In this document: positions 48,074 through 63,187 of the stretch, in pieces
Layout: each line of letters begins with the position of its first letter
Position numbering within the stretch: position 1 is the stretch's first letter
NCBI RefSeq assembly: GCF_019104765.1
Contig: NZ_JAHRXJ010000004.1
Location: 372,001 to 436,000, forward strand
Reading direction: 5' to 3'
DNA: 64,000 bases
DNA from: Synechococcus sp. HK05
GTDB lineage: Bacteria > Cyanobacteriota > Cyanobacteriia > PCC-6307 > Cyanobiaceae
Notes under the pieces: generated by a model
Told to the model about the DNA's origin: nothing
Seen by the model: only the letters and a program-made list of their open reading frames with translations
Database searches by the model: none
Position numbers and translations under genes: made by a program

Positions 48074-49099
48074 ATGCGCATTGGCATCAACGGCTTTGGC
48101 CGCATCGGCCGGCTGGTGTTCCGAGCCCTCTGGGGACGGCCCGGTATCGAGCTGGTGCACGTGAACGACAGCGCCGGCGATGCCGCGACTGCTGCGCACC
48201 TTCTGGCCTTCGACTCGGTGCATGGCCGCTGGCACCAAGCCCTGCAAGCCAACAGCCGCGGTTTTGTTGTAGGTACTCAGCCGGTGAGTTACACCCGCGA
48301 GAGCAACCCGACAGCCGTGCCCTGGACGGAAGCGGGCGTTGAGCTGGTGCTCGAGTGCAGCGGCAAGTTCAAAACACCCGAAACCTTGCAGCCCTACTTC
48401 GATGCAGTGGGGATGAAGCGGGTGTTGGTGGCCTGCCCGGTGAAAGGAATGATCGCCGGAGCCGAAGCGCTCAACATCGTTTACGGCATCAACCATCACC
48501 TCTACAACCCTGAGCAGCACCGGTTGGTGACGGCGGCCTCCTGCACCACGAACTGCCTCGCGCCGGTGGTGAAGGTGGTGCACGAGAGCTTCGGCATCAA
48601 GCACGGCTCGATCACCACCCTTCACGATGTCACCAACACCCAAGTGGTGGTGGATGCGTTCAAAAGCGATCTCCGCCGGGCGCGCTCCTGCATGCAGAGC
48701 CTGATCCCCACCACAACCGGGTCAGCCAAAGCGATTGGGATGATCTTTCCCGACCTGCAAGGCAAGCTCAACGGCCATGCGGTGCGTGTACCGCTGCTCA
48801 ACGCCTCCCTCACTGATGCGGTGTTCGAACTGGAGCGCCCAGTGAGCGTGGAAGAGGTGAATGGCGCTTTTGAAACGGCCGCCAACGGAGCCTTACAGGG
48901 CATCCTCGGCTACGAAACCCGGCCGCTGGTGTCTGTTGATTATGTAAACGACAACCGCAGTGCTGTGATCGACGCCCTCTCCACGATGGTGGTGAACGGC
49001 ACCCAGCTGAAGGTCTACGCCTGGTACGACAACGAGTGGGGGTACAGCTCCCGCATGGCGGATCTGGCCTGCCACATCGCCGAGCTCGAGGCACGCTGA
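48074..49099 (+). CDS. gap: Glyceraldehyde-3-phosphate dehydrogenase of the arsenate pathway
   Basis: A 341-aa GAPDH with the NAD fold [19 protein letters not shown] and the catalytic Cys in [14 protein letters not shown], followed by the His of the GAPDH active site and the S-loop. Linked to ArsJ, it would use arsenate in place of phosphate to make 1-arseno-3-phosphoglycerate, which ArsJ exports. The ATG at 48074 starts at the canonical N-terminus. Its stop overlaps the arsJ start (TGATG). A housekeeping GAPDH is expected elsewhere in the genome. Confidence 0.93.
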
Positions 49100-50358
49100 T
49101 GGGCCTCCTCTCCACGGGCCAGCGCTCCCTCTCAGCGCTGCAGCAATACGGGATCGTGACGGCCAACTACTGGGCCTTCACCCTCACCGACGGCGCCCTG
49201 CGCATGCTGGTGGTGTTTCATTTCCACGCGCTGGGTTACACCACCCTTGAGATCGCCTTTCTGTTTCTCTTCTACGAATTCTTCGGCATCATCACCAACC
49301 TCTACGGCGGTTGGCTTGGGGCGCGCTTCGGCCTGAGGCTCACCCTCTGGAGCGGCACCTTGATGCAGGTGGCCGCGCTGCTGATGCTGATCCCGGTGGC
49401 CGACACCTGGCCGAAATGGTGGAGCGTGGCCTACGTGATGGTGGCCCAGGCGATCAGCGGCATCGCCAAAGACCTCAACAAGATGAGTGCCAAGAGCGCC
49501 ATCAAAACCGTGGTGCCCGAAACCACAGACGACCAAAGCCGCGGCGAGGCGCAGCTGTTCAAGTGGGTGGCGATCCTCACCGGCTCGAAGAACGCACTCA
49601 AGGGCGTGGGCTTCTTCCTCGGCGGCTTGTTGCTCACCACGATCGGCTTCAACGCGGCCGTGGGAGCGATGGCAGCCGGCCTGTTCACAGCCTTTCTGCT
49701 CACCCTGGTGCTTCCGGCCGAGATCGGCCGCATGAAACAGAAGCCCACGTTCACGGCGCTGTTCTCCAAATCCGAAGGCATCAACGTGCTCTCCCTGGCC
49801 CGCTTTTTCCTTTTCGGCGCCAGGGATGTGTGGTTTGTGGTGGCCTTGCCCGTGTTCCTGCAGGCCGCCCTGGGTTGGCGCTTCTGGGAGGTGGGCGGCT
49901 TCATGGGCCTGTGGGTGATCGGCTATGGGATCGTGCAGGCCTCAGCTCCTGCCCTACGGCGCAGCTGGGGCCAGAGCAAACCACCGGGAGTTTCAGCGGT
50001 GGAGTTCTGGAGTGGCGTGCTCACGGCCATCCCGGCGCTGATTGCGATCGCGCTCTGGCGCGAGGTGGCACACCCGGGCGTGGCGATCGTGGCGGGGCTG
50101 GCGGCCTTTGGCGTGGTGTTCGCCATGAATTCCTCGATCCACAGCTACATGGTGCTGGCTTACACCGATGCCGAATCGGTAAGCCTGAATGTGGGCTTCT
50201 ATTACATGGCCAATGCCGCCGGGCGGCTTCTGGGCACGCTGCTGTCTGGAGCCCTGTTCCTCCTGGGTGGGATGCAGGCCTGCCTGTGGATGTCGTGCGT
50301 GCTCGTGGCCCTCGCCTTCGGCACGAGCACCAGGCTGCCACCCGTGCAGCCGCACTGA
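49099..50358 (+). CDS. arsJ: ArsJ organoarsenical efflux permease
   Basis: A 419-aa MFS protein with about twelve helices. The N-terminus NYWAFTLTDGALRMLVVFHFHALGYT and the segment GIAKDLNKMSAKSAIKTVVPE are characteristic of ArsJ. Beside a GAPDH gene, it removes unstable 1-arseno-3-phosphoglycerate, giving arsenate resistance without reduction. The ATG shares a base with the gap stop codon, so the two are translated together. Confidence 0.92.
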   Translation: MGLLSTGQRSLSALQQYGIVTANYWAFTLTDGALRMLVVFHFHALGYTTLEIAFLFLFYEFFGIITNLYGGWLGARFGLRLTLWSGTLMQVAALLMLIPVADTWPKWWSVAYVMVAQAISGIAKDLNKMSAKSAIKTVVPETTDDQSRGEAQLFKWVAILTGSKNALKGVGFFLGGLLLTTIGFNAAVGAMAAGLFTAFLLTLVLPAEIGRMKQKPTFTALFSKSEGINVLSLARFFLFGARDVWFVVALPVFLQAALGWRFWEVGGFMGLWVIGYGIVQASAPALRRSWGQSKPPGVSAVEFWSGVLTAIPALIAIALWREVAHPGVAIVAGLAAFGVVFAMNSSIHSYMVLAYTDAESVSLNVGFYYMANAAGRLLGTLLSGALFLLGGMQACLWMSCVLVALAFGTSTRLPPVQPH

Positions 50359-58904: not shown

Positions 58905-59027
58905 ACGAACCCTGGGGCTTTAACCACTCTGACAGCAGAAGCCCAGGGCTGACGGGTTGCCCCCAAATGGGGGTAGCGACTGCCGCCGCATTGCTCGTAG
59001 CTGTAGCGAGCCGATCACAGCGGATCC

Positions 59028-59246
59028 TTGGAGAACATCGCAGCCCACCTGGCCAAGCTGAAGGCTGAGCTCGATCAGGCCCGCCAGAGCGGTGACACGG
59101 CCAAGATCAACCACCTCGCGAGCGAGCTCAAGGATCTGGAGGCCTACCAGCAGCACCACCCCGGCGAGCAGAAGGATCCCTCACCGCTGGAGGTGTATTG
59201 CGACCTCAACCCACAAGCCCCTGAGTGCCTCGTGTACGACGACTGA
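59028..59246 (+). CDS. CP12-like protein lacking the core motif
   Basis: A 72-aa protein. Its end, PLEVYCDLNPQAPECLVYDD (residues 53-72), matches the CP12 C-terminus, which has two Cys eight residues apart and binds GAPDH in the dark-inactive GAPDH/CP12/PRK complex. The N-terminal Cys pair and the AWDxVEEL core that contacts PRK are missing and replaced by a charged helix (KLKAELDQARQSGDTAKINHL). Length is normal for CP12. The start is TTG at 59028. A GAPDH-only partner is plausible. Confidence 0.7.
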   Translation: MENIAAHLAKLKAELDQARQSGDTAKINHLASELKDLEAYQQHHPGEQKDPSPLEVYCDLNPQAPECLVYDD

Positions 59247-59250
59247 ACCC

Positions 59251-59481
59251 ATGAGCCAACAGGATGCGCGGATCACCATTGGCGAATTGGAGGCCAATTA
59301 CCAGCTGTATTGCAAAGCCCTGAAGATGTTGATCGCTGAGAAGCGAACCCTCAACAAGATTCAGCGCACCGTGTGTTGGGGGCGACTCGAGACACTGCAT
59401 CATTGCTTACCCAAGCACTACAAGTCGCCCCAATATCTCTACGCCCAACTGACGCGAGACGAACAAAAGGTTGCGACCTGA
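59251..59481 (+). CDS. Hypothetical protein, 76 aa
   Basis: A small basic helical protein (MSQQDARITIGELEANYQLYCKALKMLIAEKRTLNKIQRTVCWGRLETLHHCLPKHYKSPQYLYAQL spans most of it, residues 1-67). Not recognised. It starts 4 bp after the CP12-like stop, so the two are likely co-expressed and may be functionally related. Confidence 0.6.
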   Translation: MSQQDARITIGELEANYQLYCKALKMLIAEKRTLNKIQRTVCWGRLETLHHCLPKHYKSPQYLYAQLTRDEQKVAT

Positions 59482-59533
59482 GCGCATCCAGCACTCCTGG
59501 GCCCGATGATGACCACTCGCCTGGGGCTGCGCG

Positions 59534-60220
59534 ATGGACTTCACGCCGTATCTCGACAGCCTCAGCAACGGCCATCTCGATGAGGTGCTGTTGTCGGTAG
59601 CCGTGCAGGGCAAGGTCGCCCTTGCCCTGAAGGGGCGTTTCTTTCTGCGCTGCCTGTGTGAAAGCTTTAGCTCGTCCACCTTGATCGGTTGCGCCGTCAC
59701 CGATGAGCAGAGTTGCCTCAGCTACCTCCAGCAAGAGCCCTATGAACTGCTGATCTGCACCGACTTTCTGGAGAACGGCAACGGATTTGAACTGGCCCGC
59801 AAGGCACGCCAGTTGCAACCCCAACTGAAGGTGGTGGTGTTGGCCCTCGGTGATGCCATCCCGGTGGAATACGCCGAAGCCAGTTGGCTGGAGGCCGTGG
59901 TGGCGGAAGCGGATTTCATCGAAGACCAGAAACCGCTCGAAGCAGCCGTGATGGCCGTCATGGGCAATCACTCCTACCGAAGCCCTTCCCTCCGCTCCGG
60001 CCAGCTCCCCTATCTGAGTTGCCCGCGGCTGACGCCGCGCGAATACGAGGTGCTCGATCTGCTGGCCAGCGGCCTCACCGACCGCGAAATCGCCGAACAA
60101 CTGGTGGTGAGCGAAGAAACAGCCCGCACCTACACCAAACGCCTGCTCAAAACCCTGGAGGTGAACAACCGGGTGCAGGCCGTGCTCAAAGGGATGCGCT
60201 GCGGCATGGTTCAGATCTGA
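59534..60220 (+). CDS. LuxR-type response regulator with degenerate receiver
   Basis: A 228-aa protein. The C-terminal HTH is typical of NarL/FixJ: LTPREYEVLDLLASGLTDREIAEQLVVSEETARTYTKRLLKTLEVNNR. The N-terminal domain aligns with a receiver: an Asp occurs in LLICTDFLENG, but the acidic pair that binds Mg2+ at strand 1 is absent (KVALALKGRFF). Phosphorylation is therefore doubtful. It follows the CP12-like pair on the same strand; the signal is unknown. Confidence 0.8.
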   Translation: MDFTPYLDSLSNGHLDEVLLSVAVQGKVALALKGRFFLRCLCESFSSSTLIGCAVTDEQSCLSYLQQEPYELLICTDFLENGNGFELARKARQLQPQLKVVVLALGDAIPVEYAEASWLEAVVAEADFIEDQKPLEAAVMAVMGNHSYRSPSLRSGQLPYLSCPRLTPREYEVLDLLASGLTDREIAEQLVVSEETARTYTKRLLKTLEVNNRVQAVLKGMRCGMVQI

Positions 60221-60272
60221 ACCAACTGCCAAAGGCAGAGCCCCACAACGCGCCCATACTGCGGGTCGATGC

Positions 60273-61082
60273 ATGCAGCAACAGCCCATGGCGCCTCGTC
60301 TGTCGGCTTTGATTCCTGTGGCGGCCCTGGGGTTGAGCCTGCCGATCGCCGCGCTGGCGGCTCCGGCCCAGGCAGCTCCCAGCAGCTGCCCCACCCCGAT
60401 GCTCGGGCGCTACGCCGTGATGGGCATGGGGGTGCAAAACGGCAACGGACGCAACACCCCCACGGCGCATCTGCGCGAAGAGCGCTGGCTCGCTGGCGGA
60501 ACGCTGCAGGGAACGGTGGTGGAGCGGCTCGGCCGCGCTGAGCGCCAGGCCAGCTACAGCGGAACGGCGCGTCTGGCAGCGGGCTGCGTGTTGCAGCTGG
60601 AGCGCCAATTGCCCTGGGGCAGCGAGCGCAGTGAAGTGGTGCTCGATGGCAAAGGCCGCCCGCTCTACAGCCTCAACCGCAACGCCGGCAGCGTGATCAC
60701 CAGCCGCTGGTTGCCGATGGCACCCGGCCGCTGCCAGGCATCCGATCTCAATGGCCTGGTGCTCAGCAGCCAGGTGGGGCTCACCTGGCGGAACGGTGGC
60801 TGGAGCCCCAACGCTGTGGTGCAACGGGAGCAATGGCGTGATGGTGCGGTGAACGGCTTGGCGCTCTCCAGCTATGGCGGCGTGGGTGAAACCGCTAGCT
60901 ACAGCGGCCAACTGAAGCTGGATCCCAGCAGCTGCTGGGGCAGCCTCAGCGAACGAGACGCCAAGGGCGTTGGCTACAACTACCGTGCGCTGCTGGTGAA
61001 GGGCCGCTCCGGCGCCCGCGGCTACTTCTACCTGCAGCGCGATCCAGACGACCTCACCGCCGGCTGGCTGGTGCGCGACTAA
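60273..61082 (+). CDS. Secreted hypothetical protein with internal repeat
   Basis: A 269-aa exported protein: signal peptide residues about 1-35 (hydrophobic core, ending AQAA). Two related halves are seen: REERWLAGGTLQGTVVERLGRAERQASYSGTARLAAGC and REQWRDGAVNGLALSSYGGVGETASYSGQLKLDPSSC, each ending in Cys. This suggests a duplicated beta-rich domain with a disulfide. Function unknown. It is convergent with the SelD fusion and its stop overlaps by 4 bp. Confidence 0.65.
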   Translation: MQQQPMAPRLSALIPVAALGLSLPIAALAAPAQAAPSSCPTPMLGRYAVMGMGVQNGNGRNTPTAHLREERWLAGGTLQGTVVERLGRAERQASYSGTARLAAGCVLQLERQLPWGSERSEVVLDGKGRPLYSLNRNAGSVITSRWLPMAPGRCQASDLNGLVLSSQVGLTWRNGGWSPNAVVQREQWRDGAVNGLALSSYGGVGETASYSGQLKLDPSSCWGSLSERDAKGVGYNYRALLVKGRSGARGYFYLQRDPDDLTAGWLVRD

Positions 61083-63187
61083 CCCATCACCTGGCCAATC
61101 AAGGCGGCTTGGTGGAAGCCAGCCGCCTGAACCGCCGCCAGGGCCGCCGGGGCTGAGGCCTCAGGCAGCGCCGCCAGCAGCGGACCGCAGGTTTGCGGGT
61201 CGATCCACAGCTGCTGCTGGGCAGCCGTGGAGGCGCCGCTGAGCTGCAGCGGGCCGGGAGGCTCCAGCCAAGCTAGAGCCCGCGCATTGGCGGGCGCCAG
61301 GGTGCTGCTGAACCCCTGCCCCAACAGCTCCAATGCCCCAGGCAGAGCGGTGATCGCCTCGGGATCCAACAGCACCTGCTGAGCGGGGCCGAGCATCTCC
61401 CCCAGATGGCCGAGCAAGCCAAAGCCCGTCACATCGGTACAGGCCTGGCAGCCGTGGGCCGCGAGCAGCTCCACCAGGGGCGCCTGGCTCTGCTGCATCA
61501 CCTGCAGGGCCGCATCAATCCAGGCGGGCCGCGCCGCACCCACCATCGCCGCCGCAAACAGCACCCCCGACCCAATCGGCCGGGTGAGCAACAACCGCTG
61601 GCCTGCGGCCAATGGCCCCTTCGGCCAGTGGCGCTCCGGCGCCACCAACCCGTTCACCACCAGGCTCAGCCCCAGCCCAGCACCATCGCGCCCCTCAAGG
61701 GTGTGCCCGCCCAACAGCGTTGCCCCCTGGGGCTCGAGCACCGAACGCACCCCCGCCAGGCTCTGCAGCAGCCATTCCTCCTGCAACGCCGGCGCCGCCT
61801 CCGGCAGGGTCACCACCGCCTGCAGGCTGTGCACCCGAGCCCCGCAGGCCCATAGGTCGCTGCAGGCATGCAAGGTGGTGAGCCGGGCGTTGAGCCAGGG
61901 GTCATCCAGCAGGGCCGGAAAGCCATCCACGCTCTGCAGCAACAAGGCACCGCTCGTGCTGGTCTCCACGCAGGCGGCGTCCTCCGCGGCGGGGTGATCG
62001 CCGGTGGGGGAGAGCCGCCCGAGGGCAGCCTCCAGCGGGGCAGCCGGCAGCTTGGCCGCACAGCCGCGGCAGGCCATCGGTGTGGCAGCCGCATCCATGG
62101 CCGCCGCCGGGGCGAAGCCCTGCATGAAGCGGCGATCGATGCGGTCTTTCCAGCGCCATAACCAGCGCGCGGGGCCCCGTTGCCATGGCCCGTAGAGCGC
62201 GAGGGCCTGCGGCGAAGCCGAGCCAGCCCCCCCGCCATCGCCGAGCAACTGCAAGGCCCATCGCTGCGGCCGCCAGCGGCGCAGCGGCCGGGGCGGATCC
62301 GCCAGCTGGCGCCGCAGATTCTCCGCGAGGATCGGCGCCGCGCGCACCGCCCACACCCCGGCTGCAGGCCTGGGGTCTGCCGCAATCACGGCGCAATCGC
62401 CGCTGGCAAACACCCGCTCAACGCCCGGCACCGCCAGGGTGGCGTTGGTGAGCACTCGGCCGGTGGCCGCCTCCACCGGCAGATCACTGGCCGCCAGCCA
62501 ACCCGGCGCCTGGCTGCCCGTGCAGGCCAGATCGGCGGGCACCTGATCCGCCACGCCCCGCTGCAAGGCAATCCCAGCGCGGGCAAGCAGTTGCTCAGCC
62601 GCCCGTTCCGCCGCGGCCGAACCCAGCTGAAGATGCTCACCCCGCAGCAGCAGCTCCGGCTGAAACCCGCGGGCCCGCAGGGCCAGGGCCACCTCCACCG
62701 CCGCGGCACCGCCACCGCGAATGCGCAGACGTGGGTCGGCATCCGGCTGCTGGAGCTGCGCCAAGCGCTGCTCCAACCAGGCCAGAAAGGGCTCGAGCGG
62801 CTTCACGATTTGCACCGCGCCATTGGCCTCAGCGGGCCAGCGGGTGATACAGCCCACATTCAGGCTCAGGGTGTGAAAGCGCAGGGGCGGGCGGCCTTCA
62901 AGCAGCAGCTCCCGGCGCTCTAGGGCCACGCCGGTGATCTCCGCCTGCACAAAGCCCACGCCAGCGCGGCGGCACAGATCGCGCAGATCAATGGCACAAG
63001 CCTCCAGCGGATAGAGCCCCGCCAACAGGCCGGGCACCATGCCGGAATAGAGCGCCGTGCTGGTGCGGTTCACCAGCAACACCGCCACATCAGCGGGGCG
63101 GCTGGCGGGCCGCATGATCCAGCGGCGCAGCAGCAGCGCGTGGGTGTGGCCGCAACCAGCCAACACCAACAGCGCTGCGGCGTGCAA
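61079..63187 (-). CDS. selD: Bifunctional pyridine-nucleotide-disulfide oxidoreductase / selenide, water dikinase
   Basis: A 702-aa fusion. The N-terminal half (about residues 1-340) is an NDH-2-like FAD protein (LLVLAGCGHTHALLLRRW, then VERVFASGDCAV). The C-terminal half (about 365-702) is SelD, making selenophosphate from selenide and ATP: CRGCAAKLP holds the catalytic Cys, GCQACTDVTGFGLLGHL is the metal/ATP site, and NARALAWLE is present. The fusion is known in cyanobacteria and may reduce the selenium substrate on site. TTG at 63187 lies 3 bp from the upstream small gene stop. Confidence 0.88.
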   Translation of the reverse strand: MHAAALLVLAGCGHTHALLLRRWIMRPASRPADVAVLLVNRTSTALYSGMVPGLLAGLYPLEACAIDLRDLCRRAGVGFVQAEITGVALERRELLLEGRPPLRFHTLSLNVGCITRWPAEANGAVQIVKPLEPFLAWLEQRLAQLQQPDADPRLRIRGGGAAAVEVALALRARGFQPELLLRGEHLQLGSAAAERAAEQLLARAGIALQRGVADQVPADLACTGSQAPGWLAASDLPVEAATGRVLTNATLAVPGVERVFASGDCAVIAADPRPAAGVWAVRAAPILAENLRRQLADPPRPLRRWRPQRWALQLLGDGGGAGSASPQALALYGPWQRGPARWLWRWKDRIDRRFMQGFAPAAAMDAAATPMACRGCAAKLPAAPLEAALGRLSPTGDHPAAEDAACVETSTSGALLLQSVDGFPALLDDPWLNARLTTLHACSDLWACGARVHSLQAVVTLPEAAPALQEEWLLQSLAGVRSVLEPQGATLLGGHTLEGRDGAGLGLSLVVNGLVAPERHWPKGPLAAGQRLLLTRPIGSGVLFAAAMVGAARPAWIDAALQVMQQSQAPLVELLAAHGCQACTDVTGFGLLGHLGEMLGPAQQVLLDPEAITALPGALELLGQGFSSTLAPANARALAWLEPPGPLQLSGASTAAQQQLWIDPQTCGPLLAALPEASAPAALAAVQAAGFHQAALIGQVMG

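Follow-up and report, generated by a model that had tools for sequence, protein, structure and literature searches.

In the CP12 proteins studied so far the C-terminal end CxxxPxxxxC is the part that binds GAPDH, and the CP12s of S. elongatus and Galdieria still form a ternary complex without an N-terminal cysteine pair (both according to the available text of PMC9406205). A class of cyanobacterial CP12 with the C-terminal cysteine pair only has been named CP12-C, and PDB entry 3b1j represents the GAPDH/CP12 structure of S. elongatus (available part of PMC3906501). The second enzyme concerned, PRK, is known to be of bacterial type in alpha-cyanobacteria (excerpts of PMC9199185 and PMC9978339), and an expression paper on Prochlorococcus assumes, in its available portion, that CP12 acts on PRK and GAPDH alike (PMC2663038). 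Among LuxR-type regulators, PedR of Synechocystis interacts with thioredoxin (available text of PMC9025218), and the DUF3136 family has one mention in the accessible parts of the literature, as neighbour of cytochrome c6B. The organisms concerned are of some weight, as at least one quarter of primary production in the sea is due to picoplanktonic Synechococcus and Prochlorococcus (available text of PMC11257934). Here we describe a CP12 gene in a 64,000-nucleotide stretch from Synechococcus sp. HK05 (hereafter the window), whose host genome is picocyanobacterial and 2.53 Mb in size.

The CP12 gene and the CP12 plan of the order

The CP12 paralogue lies at 59028..59246 on the plus strand of the window and encodes, from a TTG start, a protein of 72 aa that matches Pfam CP12 (PF02672) with 52.2 bits over profile positions 4-70 of 70, the Pfam gathering cut-off being 22.7. 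The protein holds just two cysteines, C58 and C67, arranged as CxxxPxxxxC, and finishes with the acidic end YDD; in a 20-row alignment the cysteine pair and this end are invariant or nearly so, with C58, N61, P62, C67 and D72 identical in all rows, including those of a diverged group (B3, see below). Neither an N-terminal cysteine pair nor the AWD_VEEL core is present, the corresponding segment reading ASELKDLEAYQ. No CBS domain was matched within the 72 aa, and the NCBIfam search returned no family for this protein or for the DUF3136 protein encoded next to it. In a comparison of eight relatives of the window CP12 the TTG start was common to all of them (8/8), and dN/dS ranged from 0.06 to 0.31 in the pairs for which it was computable (27 of 28).

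Scored alone against the Pfam CP12 profile, residues 53-72 yielded 29.7 bits and residues 1-52 gave no match, i.e. the CP12 signal is concentrated in the tail. The sequence-only reading, which had noted a CP12 match with the cysteine pair in the last 20 residues as well as the absence of the N-terminal pair and of the PRK-contacting core, had thus caught a true signal, and both observations hold. It had further taken the remainder for an unrelated helix, and such a tail-only CP12 is ruled out by comparison with the one further CP12 match above cut-off in this genome, on contig 13 (68.1 bits, L001:1495-1710). The two proteins align without gaps over 72 residues at about 60% identity (59-60%), and the first 52 residues of the window CP12 align ungapped with L001 at 48% identity (BLASTP E 2e-18); the N-terminal part of the L001 protein scores 29.2 bits alone with Pfam CP12. 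The search for a full CP12 core by alignment thus returned the full-length alignment but not the AWD_VEEL core. An AlphaFold2 model of the window protein (pLDDT 93.5) comprises helices 4-21, 24-43 and 53-60; used for a PDB fold search it gave no match at E <= 0.001, the top match being 6ghl_F, a full-length CP12 with cyanobacterial GAPDH, at a weak E of 0.05. Because of the ungapped alignment to the other CP12, the N-terminal CP12 score found there, the helices and the weak match to 6ghl_F, the preferred reading of the N-terminal part is a diverged CP12 hairpin that lacks cysteine lock and PRK motif. Judged from its sequence, the ORF is a genuine CP12 of the CP12-C class.

The architecture had been presented as special to the window CP12, which does not hold. 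The housekeeping CP12 L001 is likewise 72 aa long, with the C-terminal cysteine pair present and the N-terminal pair and AWD_VEEL absent, and the plan is shared by all CP12s of the order that were checked: neither a cysteine in residues 1-50 nor AWD occurs in any of these 209 proteins (155 distinct) from the fetched order loci. For CP12s of other orders AWD was found in 23 of 23 printed sequences and the N-terminal cysteine pair in 22 of 23, L265 being the sole one without it; this survey, which yielded 24 stretches (23 of them CP12) at 23 of 30 loci and nothing at the other seven, is blind to CP12s without a core, because the core motif served as the search key. Pfam CP12 scores of the order copies listed range from 33.6 to 71.6 bits, and the best copy in each of 21 genomes outside the order scores 90.6-111.8 bits, with further copies lower. 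Since none of the 155 distinct order proteins has an N-terminal cysteine or AWD, we take the missing cysteine pair and AWD_VEEL core to mark the CP12 type of the order, close to the published CP12-C. A typical picocyanobacterial CP12 was also found in a record titled Bifidobacterium breve MAG (L067), which is probably mislabelled or contaminated.

For the trees the housekeeping CP12s were labelled A, the window type B1, its marine relatives B2, the diverged group B3, one odd CP12 sequence (G086) B4, and another, unlinked second copy in marine strains D. Within the window's genus, two matches to the window CP12 were found in 18 of 25 genomes, one in five and none in two. An unrooted tree of 97 proteins (identical rows entered once) placed the B rows on one side of a branch with support 100/99, and a tree rooted with canonical outgroups contained an A+D clade (98/98) and separated all of its 64 same-order CP12s from the outgroup (100/100). 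The best rooted tree does not show a single B clade, although one is not rejected by the AU test (p-AU 0.324); the CP12 trees rest on 72 columns and are weakly resolved, and the rooted one used 14 of 41 A and two of four D rows, without L221, the three 'other' rows and four outgroup loci. A recent duplicate of the housekeeping CP12 is ruled out by both trees and, because of this placement, the window CP12 is not a recent copy of the A gene of its own genome. The B lineage thus represents an old second CP12 outside the housekeeping clade; the LuxR-linked CP12s may or may not all go back to one origin. The type D proteins of marine strains (L182, L183, L185, L204) start with MKTID(E/D)HIQKDQEEF, and no match to LuxR or DUF3136 was found in their fetched flanks.

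Gene company, regulator and palindrome

The two genes following CP12 had been described as those of a 76-aa protein and an atypical LuxR regulator, and the profile searches agree. The first is a DUF3136 protein of 76 aa at 59251..59481 on the plus strand (PF11334, 103.6 bits, cut-off 27), the second a LuxR/NarL-type regulator of 228 aa at 59534..60220, also on the plus strand, with a GerE domain (PF00196, 55.6 bits, cut-off 23.5), a degenerate receiver and conserved cysteines. The DUF3136 gene begins 4 bp after the CP12 stop and is separated from the LuxR gene by 52 bp; because these gaps are so short, CP12, DUF3136 and LuxR probably form one operon and would be transcribed together. A promoter scan of 58905-60300 found no sigma-70-like promoter. 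On the minus strand at 61079-63187 the window also contains a 702-aa ORF which, by eye, looks like a selenide water dikinase fused to an NADH-dehydrogenase-like part.

The linkage was counted over 182 distinct CP12 DNA cores, 51 of which were assigned to B by hand from tree and sequences (L192 was not testable); the genomes are related and hand-picked, so that neither these counts nor those for the palindrome below are independent. A LuxR gene lies within 1 kb in 43 of the 50 testable B loci, every time on the same strand, and is missing at this distance from the other seven; DUF3136 was found in 38 and either of the two genes in 47 of the 50, unlike the other CP12s, those of housekeeping type included, for which neither was found within 1 kb at any of 129 testable loci (of 131). 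Three of the B loci (L221, L229, L231) had been fetched through their LuxR, and without them the counts are 40/47 for LuxR, 37/47 for DUF3136 and 44/47 for either. No account of such a regulator-linked second CP12 was found in the accessible parts of the literature searched, and the gene company of this lineage looks new; the lineage itself, though not necessarily its gene company, may already be tabulated by Stanley et al. 2013.

The same pairing was surveyed from the LuxR side in 80 genomes, a set chosen rich in multi-copy CP12, with loci for fetching likewise picked by hand, which gave 56 matches in 50 genomes after exclusion of three weak G183 matches. Among 55 orthologues with readable surroundings 38 are located beside CP12, including one in reversed order (G175) and one frameshifted LuxR (G216); the remaining 17 are not, ten of them having DUF3136 nearby, and one more (G163) sits at a contig edge. 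Decayed or frameshifted LuxR genes beside DUF3136 were seen at L324 (G162) and L171/L122 (G216), and no CP12 was found at the G162 locus. At E <= 1e-20 a class sample of 145 genomes yielded LuxR matches in the window's family alone (5 genomes), and beyond the window's genus the fetched flanks of the CP12-LuxR pair contained none of the window's other neighbours. Multi-copy-CP12 genomes with LuxR number 44 and those without 14, single-copy genomes 6 and 16; the Fisher test of copy number vs LuxR gives p 0.00017, but this genome set was hand-picked and we do not count the result as evidence. A LuxR tree of 60 loci (57 distinct proteins; several copies, the defective LuxR genes in G216, G402 and G350 among them, were left out) shows CP12 linkage in both main clades, as would result from a single old pairing followed by several losses or from repeated gain.

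The frequent presence of DUF3136 (38 of 50 loci) and the altered residues before the last cysteine in B3 members would be in keeping with a CP12 that has left GAPDH and become a small adaptor, its hairpin serving another partner such as DUF3136. We hold this to be highly improbable, as the five C-terminal residues named above are invariant in all 20 rows, B3 included, and the CxxxPxxxxC end is the one that binds GAPDH in the CP12s studied (available text of PMC9406205).

The AlphaFold2 model of the LuxR regulator (pLDDT 87.5) has a receiver-like fold and resembles, according to Foldseek, the NarL-type regulators RcsB and VraR. Key residues of a phosphorylatable receiver are an acidic pair, an Asp, a Thr/Ser and a Lys. 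In the window regulator the receiver match stays below threshold (PF00072, 20.2 bits vs a cut-off of 30.2) and L/M-K stands where the acidic pair would follow strand 1; D77, just past strand 3, is the same in all 41 rows aligned. Cysteines 42, 53, 61, 75, 163 and 223 are kept in 95-98% of 61 distinct rows. We infer that the regulator is independent of phosphorylation, and it may sense thiol state. One could also imagine that oxidised CP12, with or without GAPDH, binds this cysteine-rich LuxR and gates its DNA binding, thereby passing redox state on to expression. The six nearly invariant cysteines, the receiver-like fold without key phosphorylation residues, the pairing conserved in 43 of 50 B loci and the interaction of PedR with thioredoxin as a precedent (PMC9025218, available text) would all suit such a scheme, but with 17 of 55 LuxR orthologues lacking an adjacent CP12 and a likeness to PedR confined to the HTH it appears very unlikely.

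Upstream of the CP12 gene lies a putative operator, CCCCCAAATGGGGG followed by TA (58960..58975, plus strand), within which the match to CCCCNNNTGGGGGTA starts at 58961, 67 bp before the CP12 start codon. CCCCNNNTGGGGGTA occurs exactly in 23 of 27 upstream regions of B1, B2 and B4 CP12s, a number that rises to 25 if one mismatch is allowed; among 1350 shuffled upstreams no copy was exact and 3 were found at this tolerance. The spacing is fixed, 24 of the 25 palindromes (two of the 24 with one mismatch) beginning 65-67 bp before the start codon and one at -86. One of the two upstreams without palindrome, L121 (G391), has an exact copy about 219 bp upstream (L235). B3 upstreams mostly lack the palindrome (exact in 1 of 19), and, unlike in the window type, the 200 bp upstream of the CP12 gene are free of it in all 102 A-type loci scanned.

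The palindrome is also found before other genes. Of 72 distinct DUF3136 genes, 46 have CCCCN3TGGGG, in either orientation, in the 200 bp upstream, compared with 588 of 20000 random windows drawn from the same loci (background 2.9%); ten of these 46 genes share their site with a divergent CP12 and one (G162) had been retrieved by its palindrome, while 19 of the 26 DUF3136 genes without it sit directly behind CP12. In 24 whole genomes the exact pattern matched 49 times vs 5 for the reversed control, with 48 sites in the 21 LuxR-bearing genomes and a single one in the three LuxR-less genomes; the LuxR-bearing genomes G021, G022, G030 and G054 have no exact site. The single site in a LuxR-less genome (G162) precedes the DUF3136 gene beside the decayed LuxR remnant, with no LuxR found there at E 1e-30. 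CP12 (16), DUF3136 (8) and LuxR (1) together follow 25 of the 49 sites, four precede a small protein family and 20 are without clear assignment, i.e. about half precede none of CP12, DUF3136 and LuxR. The window's genome carries two exact sites, one before CP12 and one before a DUF3136 paralogue. The small protein family shares the motif W-[ST]-A-[DS]-G-[ES]-LSE and was found downstream of the palindrome in four genomes (L310:1959-2162, L313:1732-1944, L315, L323); the two members scanned, those of L310 and L313, gave no Pfam match. Because of the co-conservation, the LuxR regulator is probably the protein that binds the CCCC-N4-GGGG palindrome before CP12 and other DUF3136 genes, and from the site position we would guess that it activates rather than represses them.

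A simpler account would regard the second CP12 as redundant, exerting the same dark/oxidation brake as the first copy and standing next to LuxR by inherited gene order only. Its architecture is indeed that of the first CP12, the identity between the two is about 60% and the GAPDH-binding loop is intact. The adjacency, however, lasts across several genera in which the window's other neighbours are absent, the fixed-spacing palindrome is missing from the A-type loci and the lineage has diverged from the A clade in the trees, so that we consider redundancy unlikely.

Candidate partners and a proposed brake on Gap2

The genome was found to contain three GAPDH genes. That of the window (48077-49099) had been suggested for complex prediction with CP12 and is rejected as first-choice partner, since it belongs to the ArsJ-associated type (NF033735, 561.7 bits, cut-off 450) and is followed by an ArsJ gene (584.9 bits, cut-off 400). 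The two genes make up a GAPDH-ArsJ arsenate-resistance pair at 48077-50358, about 9 kb before the CP12 locus. A better candidate is the GAPDH of another contig (L208), which is of the Gap2 type with 3b1j as its top PDB match (E 5.4e-159) and is the likely target of CP12.

PRK is represented by a single PF00485 match in the genome, and this is of bacterial type, with 486.4 bits for NF011997 (cut-off 362) vs 62.8 bits for NF005655. In the class sample of 145 genomes relatives of this PRK were found in all 14 genomes of the window's family and, at 69-72% identity, in 10 genomes of the genus g66 outside the order, with none in the remaining 121. Both g66 genomes searched keep a canonical CP12 (L255, L257), so that a bacterial-type PRK alone does not force the loss of the core. 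As loss of the N-terminal pair is compatible with a ternary complex, the proposal that the window CP12 does not bind PRK has its main basis in the type of PRK and in the absence of the core.

Our preferred reading, to which we assign a probability of roughly 55% as a whole, is that of an inducible, regulator-controlled CP12 brake on the photosynthetic GAPDH (Gap2). By analogy with the CP12s studied (available text of PMC9406205), the oxidised window CP12 would bind and inhibit Gap2 through its C58-C67 loop. PRK would not be clamped, since AWD_VEEL and the N-terminal cysteine pair are missing and the sole PRK found is of bacterial type. The protein would thus probably be limited to GAPDH and perhaps redox-gated, much as the sequence-only reading had proposed. 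That a second CP12 has been kept together with a regulator and a common DNA switch suggests that the brake is applied on demand, and the conserved cysteines may make the LuxR regulator redox-sensitive as well. A palindrome TGTCCCCAGATGGGGACA of the form TGTCCCC-N4-GGGGACA is situated about 80 bp before the gap2 start in this genome (L208:1412-1429), on account of which gap2 itself is possibly part of the regulon; at a background of 2.9% the site is only a hint.

In a further-reaching version LuxR would switch on CP12 and DUF3136 by way of the palindrome, and CP12, free or bound to GAPDH, would feed the redox state of the Calvin cycle back to LuxR. This two-way device is a long shot; if true, it would link a Calvin-cycle protein complex directly to transcription. 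As an inducible brake on Gap2, a second CP12 with linked regulator and operator would offer a handle on Calvin-cycle shutdown, both on the condition that triggers it and on whether GAPDH is its only target, and would bear on how the Calvin cycle gets switched off in cells with a bacterial-type PRK and reduced CP12. DUF3136, a family of unknown function, gains a candidate regulon.

Comparison with known systems

The regulator is like PedR in its LuxR-type HTH only (NF052366, 35.2 bits, residues 166-226), remains far below the NCBI PedR cut-off of 120 and, unlike PedR, has a receiver-like N-terminal domain. CBS-CP12 fusions share the CP12-like C-terminus, with 5nmu aligning to residues 34-72 of the window protein, and differ in their N-terminal CBS domains, of which the window CP12 has none. 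Cyanophage CP12 is a further relative: with the window protein as query, tblastn (E <= 1e-3) gave matches in 359 of 50,697 phage records, the 15 best rows listed being 48-50% identical to it, and two records, outside these rows, match at 60-80%. The closest counterpart is the CP12-C class, with which the window CP12 agrees in having the C-terminal cysteine pair and no N-terminal one. Beyond CP12-C as described in the available part of that review (PMC3906501), the window lineage has LuxR and DUF3136 as neighbours and a palindrome upstream.
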